Shown in pieces: positions 2,500 through 25,545 of a stretch of 64,000 nt of DNA; position 1 is the first letter of the stretch, and the number at the start of each line of letters is the position of its first letter. Source of the stretch: Candidatus Sumerlaeota bacterium (GTDB taxonomy: Bacteria > Sumerlaeota > Sumerlaeia > Sumerlaeales > Sumerlaeaceae); contig JAPLSQ010000012.1 in NCBI GenBank assembly GCA_026398535.1, positions 1 to 64,000 on the forward strand. The letters are read 5' to 3'. A model generated the notes under the pieces. That model worked only from the letters and a program-made list of their open reading frames with translations, did not search any database and was not told where the DNA came from. A program made the translations under genes and the position numbers.

Positions 2500-4365
2500 T
2501 CAAAGCGGTGTCGTGGTGGCTTCGGCGGACGCGCTTGTTGTGTTGTCGCCTCCGGGAGCGGTGGATGATCCGCCTCCGCCAGCTTCATCGATCAGTTTGT
2601 TGACGCCGGTCTTGTCCCTGCCGCCATATTTGATGTACTCATCGTATTCCTCCTTGGCCTTCTTGGGGTCGTTTCCGGCCTTCCGATAATAATCACCGAG
2701 CGCCAGATGCGTTTCCGGATCCTTTGGATTCAGTTCCTTGGCCCTGTTGAATTGCTCCAAGGCATTCCGCAACTTTTTCTCTTTTTCGGCTCCGCTTGCG
2801 GCCTCGCCTTGCGCTTGGAGAACTCTGCCCATTGCCAGGATGGCGGGAATGTAATTGGGCATGATTTTCAGAGCTTCCTGCGCCTTGGTTTCCGCTTGTG
2901 GCACAGTGTTTTGCTGAAGATCAGCTTCCGCCAGATAAATGTCGGCAAGCCCTTTCATGATCCGCGCTTTTGCGTTTGCCCTCGGTAGTTTGTCCAGGCT
3001 GTTGGAGACTGGTTCCAGCCATTTTTTCGCATCCTCGGGTTTCTTTTCCGCGAGGGCGATCTGCCCCATAAGAATGTGCGCCTCGACAAGCTGCGAGTCC
3101 CGTTTTCGTTTCTGGAGCTCTTTAAGTATTTTGACAGCCTGGGTGTTTTTATTGATCATAAAGTTGAGTTTTGCCTCAAGGTATTTTACGCGCGGATCAG
3201 TGGCGTTGACGCCAGCGTTGACGCCCTTTGCGAGCGTTAAATCTTCCAATGCCATCTTTATGTTGTTGAGCGCGATCAGCATTTCGGTACGGTCGGCAAT
3301 TGCATCGAAATTGTTTGGACTTCTGCCGATTTCCGCATCGAGGTTTTGCTTTGCCTTTTCGTATTCGCTGTTGTTAAAGTATGCCCGGGCCAGCGCGTAA
3401 TAAGCGCCGGCGTACTGGTCATCTTTGTTGATCAACTGCTTGAGGGTCTGAATGGCCTTGGTTGTTTCTCCGGAGTCCCTGTAAAGGTTGCCCAGCAGAT
3501 ACATGGCGTTTGTATTGGATGGGATTTTCTTGAGGCCGTCCTCCAGGATTTTGATCATTTCGGGTGTCAGCAGCGACAATTTGTACTCATGGAATTCCTT
3601 GAGCTTATCCAGAGTGAGTTTCGGAGCGTCGGAGTAGATTTGTATGTCGCCCTGCGCCGCGACGCATCGCGCGAAACTCATCGCCGCGTCCTCATATTTG
3701 CGCATATCGATTTGTTTCCTGGCGACAAGATAGGCGAACTTGGCTCTCTGGTCAGCGGCGACATTATCTTTGCCGAGTTCCAGCCCCTTTGTTATGGTTT
3801 CGATGGCGGTTGTTTCGCCGCCAGGGATTTTCAGAAGCATGTCGCCGTAGTCCAGGTAAGGGCGGTAATCCTGATCGTTGATTTCAATGGCGATCTTGAG
3901 CTCCCTTTCTTTATCCTTTGAGTTCTGGCGGTCGGAAGCTTGTTGTGCCCTCAAGTAATGAATGTTGGCGAGCATCTTCTTTGCGGCATCAGTGGGGTTG
4001 CTGCGTTGGATCTCTTCCAGCCGGGCCTGCGCTTCATCGAGGTTGCGCTGACCGATCAGATTTTCGGCGGCGCGCAATTCGTCATCCATGGCCGCGGCTT
4101 CGCGCGGCTGCACGGCCGTGGTTTCGGCCGGCGCGCCCTTTGACACGCTGAGAATTTCAGCGCGTTTCAGGCTCAACCGGCCAAGGCTTGTCTCTATCTC
4201 GACCATGCCGCTGGTCTCCGAGATGATTGTGCCGCTTAGTTTGTTGCCATTTGTCAGGCGCACCGTGTCGGTCGCGCGCGCGGACGGGATAAGTGCGAGG
4301 GACAGTGCGGCGACAGCGCCCGCGCACAGCATATTATTCACTACGCGATTAAAGTGAAATTTCAT
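2500..4365 (-). CDS. Exported tetratricopeptide-repeat protein
   Basis: A 621-residue protein with a signal peptide ending near ALIPSARA. A short beta-rich segment (residues about 33-75, RLTNGNKLSGTI onward) precedes a long array of TPR-like helical pairs covering most of residues 95-590, seen as recurring motifs such as AMYLLGNLYRDSGETTKA, AYYALARAYFNNSEYEKA and THLALGDYYRKAG. The tail is Gly/Ser/Thr-rich and probably flexible. TPR arrays bind partner proteins; the partner is unknown. The ATG at 4365 has GAGG six bases upstream. It lies 9 bases after GH57 and overlaps dacB by 4, so the three are probably co-transcribed. I cannot assign a specific role beyond a periplasmic scaffold. Confidence 0.85.
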   Translation of the reverse strand: MKFHFNRVVNNMLCAGAVAALSLALIPSARATDTVRLTNGNKLSGTIISETSGMVEIETSLGRLSLKRAEILSVSKGAPAETTAVQPREAAAMDDELRAAENLIGQRNLDEAQARLEEIQRSNPTDAAKKMLANIHYLRAQQASDRQNSKDKERELKIAIEINDQDYRPYLDYGDMLLKIPGGETTAIETITKGLELGKDNVAADQRAKFAYLVARKQIDMRKYEDAAMSFARCVAAQGDIQIYSDAPKLTLDKLKEFHEYKLSLLTPEMIKILEDGLKKIPSNTNAMYLLGNLYRDSGETTKAIQTLKQLINKDDQYAGAYYALARAYFNNSEYEKAKQNLDAEIGRSPNNFDAIADRTEMLIALNNIKMALEDLTLAKGVNAGVNATDPRVKYLEAKLNFMINKNTQAVKILKELQKRKRDSQLVEAHILMGQIALAEKKPEDAKKWLEPVSNSLDKLPRANAKARIMKGLADIYLAEADLQQNTVPQAETKAQEALKIMPNYIPAILAMGRVLQAQGEAASGAEKEKKLRNALEQFNRAKELNPKDPETHLALGDYYRKAGNDPKKAKEEYDEYIKYGGRDKTGVNKLIDEAGGGGSSTAPGGDNTTSASAEATTTPL

Positions 4366-4374
4366 ATTTATCCT

Positions 4375-6618
4375 CTAAACAACCCACATTTTGGTTTCGA
4401 AATTGTCATAAGGCGCTTTGAGACGCAAGGGCATTCGCGCAGGACAACGCTCGATCTCGCGCCCATTGACCTCAAGGGTCACGAAAAATTGGATCTCTTC
4501 CGTGTTTTCTATGTTCAATGTTGTGAAAGGCACGGCCAGTTCGACGACCTGTCCCACGGCAAAATTCGGCAGTTCACTGATAAGTTCAAAATCCATGTCA
4601 GTCTGGCGTCCCAGCAATGCCACGGGCTTTTCTGAGTCGGGCTGCGCGGTGTTGTGGCGGCCTTGCAGCGCCATGATGATCGTCCATGATTCGCGGGCGA
4701 TGAGCGACAGATTCAGCGTCACCCTGTCGCGCGGCACGGTCTTGATAATCTTGTGGTTGCAGTCGATGCGGAAATATAGATTGTCTTGGTCGAAGCCGTA
4801 GCACAGCCTGCGGATCAGATACTGTGCCTGGTGCATGGCGCCGCCGCCCATCGAGGGGTCATACTGGCCGGCCGCGAACCATTCGAAATAACTGGTATTG
4901 CGCCCGTCGATGACCGGTTTGATGAAGGCGCGCGGGTCGCGGGCGCAGCCGGTCAACCCCTGTGTCTTGATCGGTATGAAAAGGAACGACGGGGGCGGAA
5001 TGCCGAGGATGTCGCACGCCGACCTGAGATGGGCGCGGTACAACTGGTCAAATTCATCGTCGATGCCGCTTGAGTGGTCGTCGCCATACCACCAGTTCCA
5101 GTCGCTGCCCTCGGCGATCATGAGCTCCTTGCGAGCCGCCTCGACCTGGGCTGTGGTCAGCGTTGCGTGATATTTGCCGATGTGGCTCTCGACCATGTCG
5201 CGCACTTCATGGAGATAATCCCACGACTGGTTGTCCTCGCGGTGGCCGATCCAGATGCTGAAATCGCCGTTGATCCAGCTTCCGCTGAAGATCTGCGGCA
5301 GGATTTGCGCGGGCGGATAATGGTCGAGGTAGTCGCAAATGCGGATTGTCACGATGCGGCTCGATTCCGAGATCATCTGGTAAAACTTGCGCAGGAAGGG
5401 GAGTCCGTCATCGCGATAGTGTTCCCAGCAGTTTTCGCCGTCGAGGATGAGGGTGACGAGCGCGGGGCGATTCAACTCCCGTGTGTTGTCCGCGATTTTT
5501 TCAAGCCTCGCCAAAATGTCGGCTGCCGCTTCATCGGCGGGCAGCGACGGATACTGGAAACCGACAAGATCGCTGATGAACTGGTCGCGGAATATGACAG
5601 CCACCCGCGCGCCGTCGTGTTCAGCCATATAGGGCTGGTAAAGCATGCCGCTGTTGAGCACCGTGCCATCGGCTCCGCGCCGCACCGGCTGGCCGAGTGA
5701 ACGCGCCAGGATGGTTTCATCGGTGGCGATCCACTGGATGTTCTCGGAGGCGAACAGGGGGATGGTGGCGGGCGAGACGGCCCCCTCGGCAGGCCACATG
5801 CCGCGCGGACGCTGTCCGAACATTTGCTCATGGAATTGTGCGGCCCGGCGCACGTGGTCTCGGGCGTCGTCGGGGTGTGAGAAGCGCTTGCGCGGCAGCG
5901 TGATGTCGGGCCGCGCCACGAGCGCGCTGTCAGTGTCGATGATCAGTGGGAGGATTGGATGGTAGAAGGGCGTCGTTGAGATTTCGATCTGGCCGCGTTC
6001 CGCGCATTCCCTCCAGACGGGCACGATGCGCGCCATCATCTGGCGCTGCTTGAGGATGATCGTCTGTTTGTCGTGTTCGGTGAAGTCGCGCCCCTTGCGT
6101 ATCAGCGCCGCGAGCGCCTCATCGCGTTCGCGCTCAAGCGGATCGATCCATGCCAGGTTGTGCCATGCCTGCAGGTCACGGAAATCGTCATCGGTGAAAT
6201 ACTGCGCGACGCGCATCAGTTCGGCATCGCTTTTCGCCCAGCCGCGCTTTTCGTACAGTTCACGGTAGCGGGTGTAGGGCTTGATCATGTTGTCATAGTG
6301 TGCGAAGAAAAATTTCTCGAGGATGAAGAGTTTCTCGCTCGCGTTGAGGAGCTCCGCCGGACGCAATGTCAGGTCGAGGAAGAGGTCCGTGGCTTCACGC
6401 TCCACATAATCGGAAATTTGTTCGAGCAGCGACGGCGCCATGTTGAAATTGATCCGGATGCGCGGGAATTCGCTGAGGAGTTCGACCATGTCGAGGTAAT
6501 CTTTCGTGCCATGCAACCGCACCCACGGCATGATGTACTTGCCGCTGTTGATGTCCTTGTAATAAGGCTGATGCATGTGCCACAAAATGGCAAGATAGAG
6601 CGGATGGCTGTCGGTCAT
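4375..6618 (-). CDS. Glycoside hydrolase family 57 protein (alpha-glucan active)
   Basis: Probably hydrolyses or transfers alpha-glucans in the cytoplasm (no signal peptide). The N-terminus has the GH57 signature HPLYLAILWHMHQP. The region with the putative catalytic Glu is GMWPAEGAVSP, and the acid/base region is LILDGENCWEHY, fitting the retaining GH57 barrel. The C-terminal third (from about residue 560) is a beta-rich extension seen in the long COG1449-type members. I took the ATG at 6618 (MTDSHPLY) because the family normally begins there; the frame extends 30 codons upstream to a TTG at 6708 with no clear ribosome site. First gene of the GH57-TPR-dacB set. The substrate (glycogen, amylose or other) cannot be read from sequence. 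Confidence 0.88.
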   Translation of the reverse strand: MTDSHPLYLAILWHMHQPYYKDINSGKYIMPWVRLHGTKDYLDMVELLSEFPRIRINFNMAPSLLEQISDYVEREATDLFLDLTLRPAELLNASEKLFILEKFFFAHYDNMIKPYTRYRELYEKRGWAKSDAELMRVAQYFTDDDFRDLQAWHNLAWIDPLERERDEALAALIRKGRDFTEHDKQTIILKQRQMMARIVPVWRECAERGQIEISTTPFYHPILPLIIDTDSALVARPDITLPRKRFSHPDDARDHVRRAAQFHEQMFGQRPRGMWPAEGAVSPATIPLFASENIQWIATDETILARSLGQPVRRGADGTVLNSGMLYQPYMAEHDGARVAVIFRDQFISDLVGFQYPSLPADEAAADILARLEKIADNTRELNRPALVTLILDGENCWEHYRDDGLPFLRKFYQMISESSRIVTIRICDYLDHYPPAQILPQIFSGSWINGDFSIWIGHREDNQSWDYLHEVRDMVESHIGKYHATLTTAQVEAARKELMIAEGSDWNWWYGDDHSSGIDDEFDQLYRAHLRSACDILGIPPPSFLFIPIKTQGLTGCARDPRAFIKPVIDGRNTSYFEWFAAGQYDPSMGGGAMHQAQYLIRRLCYGFDQDNLYFRIDCNHKIIKTVPRDRVTLNLSLIARESWTIIMALQGRHNTAQPDSEKPVALLGRQTDMDFELISELPNFAVGQVVELAVPFTTLNIENTEEIQFFVTLEVNGREIERCPARMPLRLKAPYDNFETKMWVV

Positions 6619-6808
6619 TCTGGTTTGCCCGGCATAGGCATATGTGTCATTTGGTATGAATGAAGACCATTCTAATTGTTCAATTTCGGCGTTTTGCGCA
6701 ACGCTCAACCAATTTGATGACAGCAGTTTGTGGCATTGAGCGGGAATTGTAAAGCCGATTGTGGATAGGAATCATGTTGTATGGCGTGCAAAGGTGAGGT
6801 GCGAAGCC

Positions 6809-8272
6809 TTAGTTGTTTGTGGTGATTTGGAACACGCGGGCTTCGTTGAAACCATATCGCTCCATGAGTGTAACGCTTTCAGATGACTCAGCAGCCAAAC
6901 GGCTCAAGCGCTTCTGCTGGTCACGGTATTCAAATATCCAGGATTGTGTTTTCCCGGTCGCGCGCTCTCTGATCATGCGCAGCACGTCATCGTTGCTCGC
7001 TTTATAGGGGATCAGGCATATGTCGACCTGCGCCGCCCCATAATAATTGAGTATGAGCGGGAAGATTGTTGAATGCCGCATAAACACAGGATCACCAGGC
7101 GCGGCTTGCTCGCGCAGAAAGATTGCCGCTTCGCGCGCGCCCGATCCGCGATGATACCATTGGTTTCCCAGTCCTGTTGCCACAATCACCGCGATCAGGA
7201 ACGCCATCATATGACTGGTTCTGACAGGATATTGCGCAACTCCCCACAGGGCAAGAATCCACAAAGGCGCGCTTGCGGGCAGGAGATAGCGCCCGGGACC
7301 GATGATGTGCAGCGTGAAAATTCCAAAAACACACATGAGGCACAGTGGCACAATGCTGGCATAAAAACAGAACTTGAGGAAAACATACGGTCCAATTTGC
7401 CCGTCAATATCCGCTTGGGAGCGGCGTAATTTTCTCCACCCGATGATGCCGCCAATCGCACATACAAGCAGCATGATTTCGTCAACGCCGCGCATCCAGA
7501 AAGCATCAGGCGAACTCCCAAAAACCACAAGAGACGCCCGTCCCCACAGTATGGCTATCCGGGGAAGATGAAATCCGTCGAATTGCATTTCGCGATTAAT
7601 CGACACATAAACCGCGCCGCCAATAGCTCCCATTGTCAGGGCAACAGCCGCGCCCGCGAGAGCGGCGCGGCGATGACGCGGAAAGGCGCGGCCGGCAAAC
7701 ATGGCAAATGCCGCATGGCCCGCATAGAACGCCACCATGGCCGGTTGCAGTGACACGGCGATCAATAGCCAGAAGTAGTATGCCGTCCATGTCCGCCATC
7801 CGCCGCGCTCCATCGTGCGCAAATAAAAATAGTGTGACAGGGTTGCGGCCACGGTCAACATCGAGTACATCCGGGCTTCCTGTGAAGACCATACGGCCAT
7901 CCCGTTGAATGCGGCCATGGACATGAGCGCCAGCAGCAGACCGTTTGACACACTTTTGCGCGCGAAAAGCCACACGGCCGGAACCAGCATCGCGCCGGCG
8001 ACCGCCGAGGGGAAGCGCAAAGCCCACTCTGATGTTCCCGCGACAAGTGTCCACAGTTTCAGCAGGATGAAATAAGTGGGCAGATGACCCGCGTGCAGCC
8101 GGTCCATGATAAGGTCCGGCAACGGGCGCAGAATGGCATCAAGCGTGTGGAATTCGTCGGTCCAGAAGCCACGGTAATCCAGATGGAACAGCCGCGCCGC
8201 GAGCGCTGCGGCTGTCAGTCCCAGCATCGGCCAAAGCCCGGCGCGGCATGCCTGCTGTCGGGTATCCATCAT
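6809..8272 (-). CDS. Polytopic membrane glycosyltransferase, PMT/GT39 (ArnT-like) type
   Basis: A roughly 487-residue multi-spanning protein, probably using a polyprenyl-phosphate sugar to glycosylate lipid or protein on the outer face of the inner membrane. The first extracytoplasmic loop carries the acidic motif FWTDEFHTLD (Asp-Glu pair), and a later loop carries SSQEARMYSML, both typical of the PMT superfamily; about ten hydrophobic segments follow. The frame is open upstream to 8443, but the tandem ATGATG at 8272 overlaps the stop of the preceding gene (ATGA), so I placed the start there. It is part of a run of three related genes reading the same way. Donor and acceptor are unknown. Confidence 0.82.
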   Translation of the reverse strand: MMDTRQQACRAGLWPMLGLTAAALAARLFHLDYRGFWTDEFHTLDAILRPLPDLIMDRLHAGHLPTYFILLKLWTLVAGTSEWALRFPSAVAGAMLVPAVWLFARKSVSNGLLLALMSMAAFNGMAVWSSQEARMYSMLTVAATLSHYFYLRTMERGGWRTWTAYYFWLLIAVSLQPAMVAFYAGHAAFAMFAGRAFPRHRRAALAGAAVALTMGAIGGAVYVSINREMQFDGFHLPRIAILWGRASLVVFGSSPDAFWMRGVDEIMLLVCAIGGIIGWRKLRRSQADIDGQIGPYVFLKFCFYASIVPLCLMCVFGIFTLHIIGPGRYLLPASAPLWILALWGVAQYPVRTSHMMAFLIAVIVATGLGNQWYHRGSGAREAAIFLREQAAPGDPVFMRHSTIFPLILNYYGAAQVDICLIPYKASNDDVLRMIRERATGKTQSWIFEYRDQQKRLSRLAAESSESVTLMERYGFNEARVFQITTNN

Positions 8273-19280: not shown

Positions 19281-20931
19281 CAAGTGTTCCCGCCGCCGTT
19301 TCTGGCTGTCATTCAGCCTGATCCTTGCGGGGGCGGCGGCGCTGCGTTTTATCCAGATCGGGCGTCTGGAAATGTGGCTCGACGAATGCTGCTCGGTCCT
19401 CACGGCCTTTTCGCCCGAAGGCATCATCAAGGCGCTGCGTTATGATAACAGCCCTCCATTATACTTTTTCATGCTGAAAACATGGATGGCCGCATTCGGG
19501 GCGGGGGCGGTGGGCGTTCGCGCCCTGTCGGCTGTGGCTGGAGTTCTGACAGTGGCGGTGTTGGGGCTGTGGCTGCGCGATTTTGGCATGCCCCGGCGCG
19601 TGTGCCTGTGGGCAATGCTCCTGATGACGCTGGCTCCGCTGCAAATTCATTATTCGCAGGAAACGCGCATGTATGCGCCCGCCACCCTTTTTGTGGTGTG
19701 CGCTTGCTGGGGGCTGACGCGCGCGCTGCGCGTTGCGAGATCGGGCGGTGTGTCTGTTTCGTCGATGATGACGCCATGGTGCGCGCATGGAGCATTCGTG
19801 CTGGCGTCGCTGCTGACCCATGATCTTGGGCTGGTGTTCATCCCGGCATACTGGCTTGCGGCGCGGATCATGCGCCCGCCGCGCGGGGCGTTTGGCGCGC
19901 TTTTGGCGGCACATGCCGTTGCGGCGGCGCTTTACCTGCCGTGGCTTGCTCATGTCATTCAACAGCCCAAAACCGACGCGCTGGCGTGGGCGGCGCCGGC
20001 GTGGCGCGCCACTTCTTCCTGGCTGTTCATTCCGCTGTCGCTGGAGGCGCTTGGCGTCGGCGGATGGCTGCCCCCGTATATCAGAATTCCGTCGCCTGCG
20101 CCGGCTGTCTGTGCGGCATCGTCGGCGTGGTTCATCCTGCTTGGCGTGTGCGCGGCGGCGCAATGGTGGAGGAAGCGCGGATACTCGCGCCAGATTGCCG
20201 TGTTTGGCATTCTTGGCGCGGCGCCGCTTGTTTTTCTTTTCGTTTACTCGGTTTTATGGAAGCCTGTGTATGTTGTGGGGCGTTATGATGTTCTGTCGCA
20301 GCCATTCTATTTATCAATCATGGCTGTTGGAGCGCATGTGCTCCAGTTGCGGCTTGCGCTGCGTAGCAGGTTGCTGGCGGTCGCGGCGCTTTGGGGTGTG
20401 ACGGCAGCGCTGGCTCTTGCGGCGCTGGCTCCGCGTTACGCGGCTGCGCCGCCGGGACTGGCGACGCATCCCCAAGGCGCCCGCGGAGAATATCTTGCCC
20501 GTCATGCGGAGCCGGATGATCTGGTGGTCTGCCTTGATCTTGAGGGCGCAAAAATCGCTTATCAAATGCTGTTGCGCGGCATCCGCGCCGGCTTGGTGAC
20601 GTTCCCTTTTGAAACAAGACGTCACTTCGGCTGGGCAGACGCGGAAGGCAGTCTTAAGGGCGACGGACCGGATAAACTGCGTGCCGAGGCGCAGTCCCTT
20701 ATGAACTTGTTCAAACCGCCCGCGGCACGCCACAAGCGCCTGTGGATTTTCCAACCGCCCGCGTCGCGGCTTGCCGATGACGCGGGACCAGGCGGGATCC
20801 GCCGCGGCGGACGGGCGCGCATTGCGGATATCCTGTTGTCCACAGCCAAGGACAATGGAATGATACCCGCGAAATTGTCTCCTGATAATCTCGGCATCCT
20901 TGTGATGATTCCCGGTGAAATCCAGCGTTGA
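19273..20931 (+). CDS. Polytopic membrane glycosyltransferase, GT39/PMT type
   Basis: About 552 residues with some ten membrane spans. It carries the family motifs LEMWLDECCSVL (first acidic loop), DNSPPLYFFMLKTW and HYSQETRMYAP. The C-terminal soluble part (about 150 residues) contains EPDDLVVCLDLEGAKI. It probably transfers a sugar from a polyprenyl-phosphate donor at the outer face of the inner membrane. The start is taken as GTG 19273 (GGGG ten bases upstream); a TTG at 19264 is also possible. The gene overlaps the 3' end of the M14 gene, suggesting coupled translation. It belongs to the same superfamily as the minus-strand cluster at 6.8-11.8 kb. Confidence 0.82.
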   Translation: MADKCSRRRFWLSFSLILAGAAALRFIQIGRLEMWLDECCSVLTAFSPEGIIKALRYDNSPPLYFFMLKTWMAAFGAGAVGVRALSAVAGVLTVAVLGLWLRDFGMPRRVCLWAMLLMTLAPLQIHYSQETRMYAPATLFVVCACWGLTRALRVARSGGVSVSSMMTPWCAHGAFVLASLLTHDLGLVFIPAYWLAARIMRPPRGAFGALLAAHAVAAALYLPWLAHVIQQPKTDALAWAAPAWRATSSWLFIPLSLEALGVGGWLPPYIRIPSPAPAVCAASSAWFILLGVCAAAQWWRKRGYSRQIAVFGILGAAPLVFLFVYSVLWKPVYVVGRYDVLSQPFYLSIMAVGAHVLQLRLALRSRLLAVAALWGVTAALALAALAPRYAAAPPGLATHPQGARGEYLARHAEPDDLVVCLDLEGAKIAYQMLLRGIRAGLVTFPFETRRHFGWADAEGSLKGDGPDKLRAEAQSLMNLFKPPAARHKRLWIFQPPASRLADDAGPGGIRRGGRARIADILLSTAKDNGMIPAKLSPDNLGILVMIPGEIQR

Positions 20932-20973
20932 TACAAACTTTTTGGTGAAAGATATTATTGTCGATGGAGGCGC

Positions 20974-23349
20974 ATGATGCTCATTGCACAAGTTGAACAT
21001 GAAAACGGTATACCATTGATCAGGCTTTCCGGCCGTTTTGACGGGCTTGGGGCCACGGTGTTCGAGAGTGAAACGGCGGCGCTGGCGGATGAAAGCGCGG
21101 TGTGCTGGGTGATCGATTGCGCAAATGTTGATTATCTGTCGAGTGCGGGGATCAGGGTGATTATTGCCGCGGAAAAACGGCTCCGGGCGCGAGGCGGAAA
21201 ACTGATCATGTGCGGACTGGCGTCGGGCGTGGCGCTTGTTCTTGAAATGACGGGTTTGTTCAAACAATTCAACGTGGCGGACGGAGTTGCCAGCGCGCTC
21301 GCCAGCGCGCACGGCGGCCAGACATCGTCTTTGAACCGTGTTCACAAGATCATTGGCGGGGTGGACTATGATTTGTGCCGCCTTGCGTCCACGCAGCCCT
21401 GCGTCCTTGATTTGTGGGGATCGTTTCAACTGTCCGGGCGATTGCCGTTGCCCGATGATCTGATCCCGGCTCAGCTCGGCGATCTGGGAATAGCCGTGGG
21501 GTGGGGGGGAATGGGGGCTGACAGGGTGCAAGCCGCCGAGGCCGCGGGCGATCTTTTCACTGGCGTGAACTTTGCCGCCGTGCGGCCGGCGGATGGCTAT
21601 TGCCAGCCTGATTACATCGTGACGTCGCATCCGCAGGAACAGACTGTCCATGTCCTGTCCGCAGTGGGATTGTCCGGATCGCCGTCCTTTCGGCTCGAGG
21701 CTCATTCCTCCCCGCCGTTCACGCTTCGCACACTGGCCGGGGACATCTGCGCGATGTGCGCCGATAAGGCGGGCAACGGGCCGGTTATTGCGGGGATTGT
21801 GCTTTCGGGACAAGCCTCGCTGATAAGCGGTTCATATTTTGCGGATGCCCAAAGCATGAGCCGCAATGTCCGGACGCGGGAGACGATCGCCGGGGGCGGC
21901 AACATTCTGCTGGCCGGCCTTGTGATTCGAAGCGACAATCCCGATGAGCTGGCTGACGCCCGGATTGCCGCTGTGCGCGCCGCGATGGGACAGGCGGACG
22001 CGCCGCCGGAGCAGTTGATCATCAATGCGCGCGGCCTGACACTCAAGGAATCGAATGATTCCGCGGTGTCTGATGATCCGCGGGACATGATGCTGGAAAT
22101 GGTCACCGCTGAGAATCTGCTGAATGTGATGTGTGTTGAGCCGGACACGGAATTGACAGGCGCGCGGGTGTGGATCTATCTCCCCGCTTCCACGCGTTCG
22201 GCTCAGGAAAAACTCCTGCAAATAGATGGACTGGACAAGGCCATGTTGCGCGAGGAGTGGGAAGTCATCATCCGCCGCGTTTACAGTGACGCGGGGCGCG
22301 TTTTGCTCACTCCGTTGCAGGGGGGGTTCAGCGCGTCAACCTTCCATGTGACGGGTTATGACCGTGACGGCAAGCGGCTCTTGCCCACCGTTCTGAAAAT
22401 CAGCTCGCCGGAAAATATACGGCGCGAGGAGGAAGCGTGCCGGCATTATGTTCAGAAGTATATCCTGAATAACAGCGCGCAAATACTGGGGACGGCGCGG
22501 CAGGGGAGCTGGGCGGGGCTGTGTTACAATTTCGTGGGCATCTCGGGGCCGGAATGCCGCCTGAACTGGCTGCGCGACCATTACATGCGCCGGCCTGTCA
22601 GCGAACTCCTTCCCCTCTTCGACCGGATTTTCACGGATATTCTCAAGCCGTGGTATGGCCAGCCGCGTTGGGAAATGCTGACGCCGTATGCTGATCACGT
22701 GCCCAGCCGCGTGTTTTTCCCGCGGCTTGTGGAGGACGCCGAGAAGGCGTTTGGCATTTCGGCAGATGAGCCGATGATCGGGTGCCCCGAACTGGGCTTG
22801 GAACTGCCAAATCCATATCATGGCCTTAAGCATGTTTATCCGGCGCGGCGCGAACGGGCCAGGATGTGGTACACGGCGGTCTGCCATGGCGATCTCAATA
22901 TGCAGAATATTCTGCTCGACGAGCGCGAGAACATCTACGTCATTGATTTTTCTGAGACCAGGCCGCGCAACGTCGTTTCTGATTTCGCGCGGCTCGAACC
23001 GATCTTCATCCTGGAAACAGCGCGTGTCGACAACGGCGACGATGTCCGAAATCTGCTGGAGTTTGTTGAGGGATTGTCGCGGGCCGAATCGCTTGCCGCG
23101 CCCGCCCCTTTCACCTATAAGGGGAGTGATCCCATGGTCGGGAAGGCTTACCACATGATCTGCCGTCTGCGCAGATACGCGAAGACCGTCACGTTGTTCG
23201 AAACGAGCATGCTGCCCTATTGGCTGGCGGTGCTGGAGTGGACGCTTCCCGTGGTGTCATATATTAGCGTCAATACGGCGGTCAAACGTCTCGCGCTTTA
23301 TGTTTCAGCAATCTTGTGGCGCAACGTTCTGGCGGAGGAGCCGGAGTGA
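20974..23349 (+). CDS. STAS-domain / kinase-like fusion protein
   Basis: 791 residues in three parts. Residues 1-110 are a STAS domain like SpoIIAA/RsbV, with DYLSSAGIRVIIAAEKRL carrying the serine that partner-switching kinases phosphorylate. Residues about 120-400 form an alpha/beta region I do not recognise. Residues about 440-790 resemble an aminoglycoside-phosphotransferase-type kinase: LQGGFSAST (glycine loop), VLKISS (lysine), VCHGDLNMQNILLD (catalytic HGDxxxxN) and VIDFSE (metal-binding DF). The ATG at 20974/20977 follows GGAGG. It probably combines anti-sigma-antagonist-like signalling with small-molecule or protein phosphorylation, but target and pathway are unknown. No adjacent RsbW or sigma-factor gene is seen. 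Confidence 0.78.
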   Translation: MMLIAQVEHENGIPLIRLSGRFDGLGATVFESETAALADESAVCWVIDCANVDYLSSAGIRVIIAAEKRLRARGGKLIMCGLASGVALVLEMTGLFKQFNVADGVASALASAHGGQTSSLNRVHKIIGGVDYDLCRLASTQPCVLDLWGSFQLSGRLPLPDDLIPAQLGDLGIAVGWGGMGADRVQAAEAAGDLFTGVNFAAVRPADGYCQPDYIVTSHPQEQTVHVLSAVGLSGSPSFRLEAHSSPPFTLRTLAGDICAMCADKAGNGPVIAGIVLSGQASLISGSYFADAQSMSRNVRTRETIAGGGNILLAGLVIRSDNPDELADARIAAVRAAMGQADAPPEQLIINARGLTLKESNDSAVSDDPRDMMLEMVTAENLLNVMCVEPDTELTGARVWIYLPASTRSAQEKLLQIDGLDKAMLREEWEVIIRRVYSDAGRVLLTPLQGGFSASTFHVTGYDRDGKRLLPTVLKISSPENIRREEEACRHYVQKYILNNSAQILGTARQGSWAGLCYNFVGISGPECRLNWLRDHYMRRPVSELLPLFDRIFTDILKPWYGQPRWEMLTPYADHVPSRVFFPRLVEDAEKAFGISADEPMIGCPELGLELPNPYHGLKHVYPARRERARMWYTAVCHGDLNMQNILLDERENIYVIDFSETRPRNVVSDFARLEPIFILETARVDNGDDVRNLLEFVEGLSRAESLAAPAPFTYKGSDPMVGKAYHMICRLRRYAKTVTLFETSMLPYWLAVLEWTLPVVSYISVNTAVKRLALYVSAILWRNVLAEEPE

Positions 23350-25120: not shown

Positions 25121-25260
25121 TGGAGAAAAATTTCCTTTACGGCAAAATGATTTTCATAAAGTATTAATTTGATAGTGTGAAAGCCCGCCAGCAAGAGAAA
25201 CATTGCCTTTCTTTCCTGATGGCGGAAGACAACAAACATTCAAATGGATCGGATTGTCTG

Positions 25261-25545
25261 ATGTTTTTGGCAAAAGTTGTCGGGAAAGTGATCTCCACTG
25301 AAAAGTACGAGGTTTATGCAAGCAAAAAGCTTCTTGTTGTTCAAAAGCTCAGCCTGGACCGCAAGCCCTCGGGTCTGCCCACGATCGCGATCGATTATGT
25401 CGGCGCGGGCGAAGGAAATCTTGTGCTCGTGGGGGCGGCGCCCGGGCTGGCCTCGGTGGTTTTCAATTTCCCCAAAGCGCCGATACGCGAGCTGATCATG
25501 GGCATCGTCGACACCGTGGAGATCAGCCAGAAGAGCAATTCCTGA
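25261..25545 (+). CDS. Bacterial microcompartment vertex protein, EutN/CcmL family
   Basis: A 94-residue protein that forms pentamers capping the vertices of bacterial microcompartment shells. From the ATG at 25261 it reads [20 protein letters not shown], then [29 protein letters not shown] and [10 protein letters not shown], matching the EutN/CcmL beta-barrel (start, GAGxGDxVLV loop, final GIVDxVE strand). The frame extends 28 codons upstream, but those residues do not fit the family. No BMC hexamer (BMC-H) or trimer gene adjoins it, so it is an orphan here; the tagged PduL at 39.5 kb is the only other likely compartment protein in the window. Confidence 0.85.

Follow-up and report, generated by a model that had tools for sequence, protein, structure and literature searches.

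A recurrent bacterial protein architecture joining a STAS domain, a predicted acetolactate decarboxylase-like fold and an APH-type kinase

In the window, by which is meant the whole 64 kb stretch of DNA analysed here, positions 20974–23349 of the + strand encode one chain in which a SpoIIAA-like STAS domain is followed by a domain predicted to have the fold of alpha-acetolactate decarboxylase (ALDC) and then by a kinase of the APH superfamily. This combination looks like a conserved and recurrent architecture, of which no description was found in the literature searched (subscription journals and preprints lay outside its coverage). The protein is tentatively read below as a signalling kinase.

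Results

Open reading frame and STAS domain

The 791 codons at 20974–23349 are open without interruption and specify a product of 791 residues, or 790 if translation starts at 20977. A likely ribosome-binding site, GGAGG at 20966–20970 (+ strand), stands 3 bases from the ATG at 20974 and 6 bases from the second ATG at 20977, and favours the latter; because of the position of this site, and because the orthologue in G019 ('candidate division BRC1 bacterium ADurb.Bin183', of the same class as G000, the genome of the window, which accordingly belongs to the BRC1 phylum, Sumerlaeota) aligns its N-terminus with the second Met, the start is probably 20977. That orthologue is the best found (46% identity over residues 2–787), and its full length, together with that of four homologues from other phyla, shows that the frame did not arise by chance. 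Upstream, a gene for a PMT-like glycosyltransferase ends at 20931, and downstream a RarA/MgsA gene is convergent with the fused gene. A gene of the EutN/CcmL microcompartment vertex type is found at 25177–25545 (+ strand), with no further shell gene in the 16 neighbours scanned.

Residues 1–110 (20974–21303, + strand) form the SpoIIAA-like STAS domain that the preliminary description of this DNA had recognized at the N-terminus, along with its LSSAG segment. PF01740 matches residues 6–108 (E 1e-14, 54.6 bits against a cut-off of 22.6), the STAS anti-anti-sigma profile TIGR00377 scores 62.4 bits against a cut-off of 53.45, and in the full-length model the domain superimposes on SpoIIAA (PDB 1thn) with Z 19.4 and rmsd 1.5 over 113 residues. 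Ser56–Ser57 of LSSAG are encoded at 21139–21144 (+ strand), and the second of them, Ser57, is presumably the counterpart of the Ser that is phosphorylated in SpoIIAA. The motif, as SSAG or SSGG, is present in all nine STAS copies that cover the site, the window included; two further copies that are cut by contig ends are left out of this count.

Kinase domain

Residues 425–788 (22246–23337, + strand) belong to the family TCAD9 (PF19974; 159.6 bits against a cut-off of 40, E 1.9e-46 in Pfam), which the preliminary description missed, while its call of an APH-like kinase with intact glycine loop, Lys, HGDxxxxN and DF motifs is borne out. These are the glycine-loop motif GGFSA (residues 450–454, 22321–22335), the ATP-anchoring Lys475 (22396–22398), the catalytic loop HGDLNMQN (residues 638–645, 22885–22908) and the metal-binding motif IDFSE (residues 657–661, 22942–22956), all on the + strand. 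In six of the six fusions described below the TCAD9 score exceeds the gathering cut-off and Lys475, Glu485, the catalytic loop in the form HGD(L/M)Nx(Q/R/K)N and IDFSE are kept; the glycine loop is also kept, with small changes (GGSFSG in G348). Fold matches, searched within the full-length model and not with the kinase as a separate domain, span about residues 425–789 and are led by LxmK (Z 17.3, rmsd 3.7 over 288 residues), with PsiK (Z 15.9), MTR kinase (15.4) and APH(3')-Ia (15.4) behind it; the solved matches also include glucosamine kinase and maltokinase. The C-terminal region thus models as an APH-superfamily kinase, where failure to do so would, by the preliminary description, have refuted the proposal, and is placed in that superfamily by its fold together with the Lys, HGDxxxxN and DF motifs. 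Judged by these intact motifs, the kinase is apparently active.

The fold leaves two kinds of substrate to be weighed. Small molecules are the substrates of most APH-fold enzymes, and the solved matches to PsiK, MTR kinase, glucosamine kinase, maltokinase and APH would suit a kinase that acts on a sugar or an imported metabolite and is gated, through the STAS and ALDC-like domains, by uptake or by a metabolite. LxmK, in contrast, is taken here to be an APH-fold kinase acting on Ser/Thr of a peptide, and STAS domains with a switch serine point to protein phosphorylation. A third view, which makes the domain a pseudokinase and the whole protein no more than a scaffold for its partners, would fit the statement in an excerpt of Kaur et al. 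(PMC7159879) that the S/T/Y kinase domains of conflict systems are mostly disrupted; it is very improbable here, as every one of the six fusions has retained Lys, Glu, HGD, Asn and IDFSE.

Middle domain

Between the STAS and kinase domains lie about 280 residues that the preliminary description could not assign; they indeed have no convincing Pfam match, but their fold is recognizable from predicted structure. The middle domain (residues 121–412, 21334–22209, + strand) has the ALDC/PTD012 fold, an assignment that comes mainly from structural models. AlphaFold2, given 11 homologues, returned the full chain with mean pLDDT 83.3 and pTM 0.62 and the middle domain alone with pLDDT 85.8 and pTM 0.87. 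The first 14 Foldseek matches to the middle domain are ALDC chains (E 1.8e-7 to 4.6e-6), followed by PTD012 (3.5e-5), 3hwu (1.1e-3) and AF0104 (5.3e-3). In VIA-align the best ten PDB entries are likewise ALDC or PTD012: nine ALDC entries give Z 15.7–16.5 over 197–202 residues (rmsd 2.7–2.9) and PTD012 gives Z 15.2 over 231 residues, after which come six smaller entries at Z 8.9–10.9, including AF0104 and a PPC protein (the other four presumably being relatives of these two), and then a fall to 4.6. The ALDC match was reproduced in the full-length model. Identity to ALDC and PTD012 in the structural alignments is 8–11%.

Support for ALDC homology from sequence alone is partial. Of the two approaches that the preliminary description had suggested for this region, structure prediction gave the fold, whereas profile searches gave weak Pfam matches only: four, each to a single copy, among 11 middle-domain copies searched at E up to 10 (best E 0.02), with none of the 11 matching the ALDC family, in a search where the HMMER filters discard most matches above 0.1. 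A PDB profile search with the middle-domain alignment returned no ALDC and two weak unrelated matches (best E 0.17). Alignment of profiles against three ALDCs with hhalign gave P 0.015 (probability 2.9%) for five kinase-less ("lone") copies and P 0.23 (probability 0.3%) for all 11 copies. With BLASTP the L092 lone copy matches AlsD at E 1.4e-4, in a database of three sequences. Among 33 Smith-Waterman pairs, one beats all 200 shuffles (L092 with 5xne, score 75 against a shuffle maximum of 53, z 8.2), L057 with 5xne comes near the shuffle maximum (51 against 53), and the remaining 31 lie below. A degenerate PP2C/SpoIIE domain was also considered for this region and rejected: set against the six SpoIIE domains of G000 by profile, it gave a probability of 0.1%, and the fold search led to ALDC.

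The metal ligands of ALDC are assumed here to be an HxH motif and a third His, plus a Glu, the corresponding columns having been matched by alignment and by ALDC chemistry. HxH is kept in all five lone copies and in two of six fused copies, and is absent from those of the window, which reads NAR, and of G019; the Glu is kept in the four lone copies that cover its column and in two of six fusions, the window having Asp (GD). Asp193 and Asn351/Arg353 thus stand at the lost metal-site positions of the window protein. A His near the third metal position is found in one of the seven copies that keep HxH. Because the window copy is without the ALDC-type Glu and HxH positions, its middle domain is probably a pseudo-enzyme, and the loss of HxH in the window and G019 copies, set against its retention in all five lone copies, argues for a non-catalytic role here. 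Two of the six fusions, those of G348 and G308, keep both HxH and Glu, and an ALDC-like site may therefore be active in some copies.

Distribution and conservation of the fusion

In searches of 386 genomes, with at most about five candidates scored per genome, the middle-domain profile (4 rows) matched six genomes and TCAD9, at E 1e-12, matched nine, all above cut-off. All six middle-domain genomes are among the nine, and each of them carries the STAS domain, the middle domain and TCAD9 in a single open frame of 766–855 codons. They spread over four phyla, represented by 2 of 40 genomes for that of the window, 1 of 2 for that of G308, 1 of 1 for that of G117, and 2 of 17 for that of G348 and G212. 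The survey of STAS–APH fusions proposed earlier thus shows the fusion to be real and not a one-off, since it recurs in six of 386 genomes and has kinase-less paralogues. The other three TCAD9 genomes gave no middle-domain match. In two of these three, TPR repeats stand ahead of TCAD9 (L098, 2063–4213; L099, 9737–11551), a different TCAD9 architecture.

The three domains have diverged to different degrees. Identities between the window protein and its homologues, for kinase, STAS and middle domain respectively, are 60, 45 and 31% (G019), 52, 30 and 24% (G308), 47, 31 and 17% (G117), 32, 39 and 15% (G348), and 31, 41 and 15% (G212). The middle domain is therefore the most divergent in all five comparisons, with the kinase best conserved in three and the STAS domain in two.

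Further searches covered other kinds of record. Of two scans of genome contigs, the first gave no match and the second the known orthologue only; nine plasmid records had STAS-only matches, none covering 80% of the query; a PHROGs search gave zero matches; and PADLOC gave only weak matches over the HGD loop (best E 0.014). The last result bears on the reading that the name TCAD9 (ternary complex associated domain 9) implies, namely that the protein serves a conflict (defence) system as effector or accessory. A figure legend of PMC10910872 ties the name to vWA-MoxR-VMAP ternary systems, and an excerpt of Kaur et al. (PMC7159879) mentions that a few of the VMAP effectors are active APH-like kinases. 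That reading is hardly credible for the present protein, given the PADLOC result and given that vWA, MoxR and VMAP are all missing among the 16 window genes scanned near the fused gene (elsewhere in the 64 kb, ORF translations alone were viewed).

Kinase-less paralogues and gene neighbourhoods

STAS-ALDC genes that lack the kinase were found in G000 (two), G308 (two, both cut by contig ends) and G117 (one, cut), and in these three genomes the fused and lone genes are on separate contigs; in G348 and G212 the fused gene only was seen. A tree of the middle domain recovers a fused A group (window, G019, G308 and G117; support 98/98), a group of the ABC-associated lone copies of G000 and G308 (99/98), and a group that joins the second lone type to the fused copies of G348 and G212 (99/99), and leaves the placement of G117_C148 unsettled. 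The tree allows either history of the kinase fusion, which may be ancestral or may have arisen twice. G000 and G308 each hold one fused-A, one ABC-associated lone and one second lone copy, in three separate tree groups.

At all three ABC-associated lone loci the gene that follows immediately, in the same orientation, encodes a BPD_transp_2 permease; genes for an ABC ATPase, ABC_sub_bind, NMT1 and Cache-HAMP each occur at two of the three. A SpoIIE domain is seen at the G000 locus only; in G117 the gene is incomplete, and the contig of G308 starts inside the STAS-ALDC gene. The cluster of NMT1, Cache-HAMP(-SpoIIE), ABC_sub_bind, STAS-ALDC, BPD_transp_2 and ABC ATPase genes occurs in three phyla, not with all pieces at each locus (L057, 962–8507; L092, 2–2931; L095, 1–8132; the latter two are cut by contig ends). 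Within L095, positions 4122–7046 (− strand) hold a 974-aa ORF that joins an ABC permease and two ABC_sub_bind domains in a single chain. The second kinase-less STAS-ALDC gene, at L056 (1247–2572, − strand), lies between apparent EF-G and trpD genes, and its counterpart is at L093 6633–7322.

These loci invite the view that the lone STAS-ALDC proteins act on an ABC transporter, by binding or by modification, and that the fused protein is the hub of this control, its kinase setting their phosphorylation, as would suit both the recurrence of the permease and its companions at the three loci and the joint presence in G000 and G308 of all three tree groups. We nevertheless consider this unlikely, because no linkage was seen, the fused and lone genes being on different contigs in G000, G308 and G117, and because G348 and G212 show the fused gene only.

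Transport genes also adjoin some fused copies. The G348 fusion is the next gene, on the same strand, after an SBP_bac_1 solute-binding protein and two BPD_transp_1 permeases; that of G212 is preceded by a cation-efflux gene, beyond which lie a BPD_transp_2 permease, an ATPase (recognized by eye) and a Peripla_BP_4 protein; and that of G019 is preceded by two BPD_transp_1 permeases. Divergent from these two permease genes is a gene (L058, 12900–14375, + strand) for a 491-aa protein with an N-terminal HATPase_c_2 (RsbW-like) domain. The gene adjoining the fused kinase gene in G117 (L096, 10686–12428, + strand) fuses a GNAT-like acetyltransferase to a histone-deacetylase-family domain. No ABC genes were seen by eye beside the G117 copy or the G308 copy, the contig of the latter being only 6.2 kb, and none lies beside the window copy among the 16 genes scanned. 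A small-molecule substrate gains further weight from the ABC genes next to the fusions of G348, G212 and G019; such genes adjoin only three of six fusions, however, and are common anyway. A small-molecule kinase, the main rival reading, is doubtful in our estimate, and at the same time nearly as defensible as the signalling kinase preferred here.

Components of ordinary partner switches are distributed as follows. The scan of 16 window genes near the fused gene found none that encodes SpoIIE, another PP2C phosphatase or a GHKL kinase, and the neighbourhood is thus not that of a partner switch. Elsewhere in G000 there are six SpoIIE domains and seven more matches to STAS, and contigs C145 and C41 carry two clusters in which SpoIIE, STAS and HATPase_c_2 stand side by side, from which it follows that ordinary partner switches do not need the fused kinase. 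HATPase_c_2 matches at E 0.001 (with those above cut-off in parentheses) number 10 (5) in G000, 9 (6) in G019, 15 (9) in G117, 13 (7) in G308 and 1 (1) in G212. G348, which is 89% complete, has no such match, yet its fusion keeps the STAS serine.

Discussion

The reading that we favour, tentatively and at somewhat less than an even chance, is that the protein is a cytoplasmic signalling kinase in which the ALDC-fold domain would set kinase activity, the kinase would phosphorylate the STAS serine, SpoIIE would reverse this, and transport would be tuned as a result. In the copy studied here the ALDC-fold domain would most likely be a ligand-sensing or docking pseudo-enzyme. The target of the kinase would most likely be a protein serine, and above all the conserved serine of a STAS domain, whether in its own chain or in the lone STAS-ALDC paralogues encoded by the same genome, and phosphate would be removed by SpoIIE-type PP2C phosphatases. 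Such a system would amount to a partner switch with an APH-fold kinase in the usual place of the RsbW/SpoIIAB-type (GHKL) kinase, and its output would probably be the tuning of transport or uptake functions. Of the two possibilities raised in the preliminary description, a self-contained partner switch and an enzyme gated by STAS phosphorylation, either may apply.

This explanation, the most likely of those considered, is supported at the level of sequence by the conserved kinase motifs (six of six), the STAS serine (nine of nine), the greater conservation of the kinase against G019, G308 and G117, and the G348 fusion, which has the STAS serine in a genome without an HATPase_c_2 match. It is also consistent with LxmK being the best solved match of the modelled kinase, and STAS-ALDC paralogues lie near Cache-HAMP-SpoIIE, substrate-binding and ABC permease genes. 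Counting against it are the better conservation of STAS than of kinase against G348 and G212, the matches to sugar and MTR kinases, the presence of HATPase_c_2 above cut-off in five of the six carriers, and the lack of SpoIIE in the scanned neighbours. A broader proposal, which we regard as rather doubtful, is that these proteins form a new class of signal switch, in which a retired ALDC-like domain would sense a metabolite, the APH/lanthipeptide-type kinase of the same chain would respond by setting the phosphorylation of its own and partner STAS domains in place of a GHKL kinase, and extracellular solute sensing (by Cache-HAMP-SpoIIE and binding proteins) would be tied to ABC transport.

If the signalling kinase is real, an APH-type kinase becomes part of STAS-based switching and shares one chain with its target, and the fold of a metabolic enzyme has been recruited as a signalling domain beside STAS. 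A domain that has no Pfam model gains a predicted fold, and the defence-named TCAD9 family gains a context outside defence.

Comparison with known systems shows what is shared and what differs. With SpoIIAA/RsbV (TIGR00377, PF01740) the window protein has in common the fold, a profile score above cut-off and the switch serine in an SSAG context, but its STAS domain shares a 791-aa chain with a kinase, and no GHKL kinase is encoded among the 16 scanned neighbours. It resembles TCAD9 proteins (PF19974) in score and in APH-type catalytic motifs, and differs in its STAS and ALDC-like domains and in having no vWA, MoxR or VMAP in the scanned neighbours. Residues 121–412 are alike in fold to ALDC (BudA/AlsD; Z 16.5) and to PTD012/C11orf54 (Z 15.2), whereas the family signature is missing from the window copy, which has no Pfam ALDC match, Glu or HxH. 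The kinase fold is like those of LxmK, of the lexapeptide dehydratase complex LxmKY, and APH(3') (Z 17.3 and 15.4), although no lanthipeptide or resistance context was noticed. Among single-chain regulators, Rv1364c of M. tuberculosis is described in an excerpt of PMC12143880 as combining PAS, phosphatase, anti-sigma and anti-anti-sigma domains. The window protein is likewise a single-chain regulator, and differs in its APH-type kinase and in having no phosphatase domain. The kinase of Rv1364c is of the RsbW/GHKL type. PknD, also of M. tuberculosis, is a Hanks-type kinase and a separate protein from its STAS target; Greenstein et al., cited in PMC2877116, are said to have reported in 2007 that it phosphorylates an anti-anti-sigma homologue. 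Going by the title of that paper, PknD offers a precedent for an enzyme of kinase fold, not GHKL, acting on a STAS protein.
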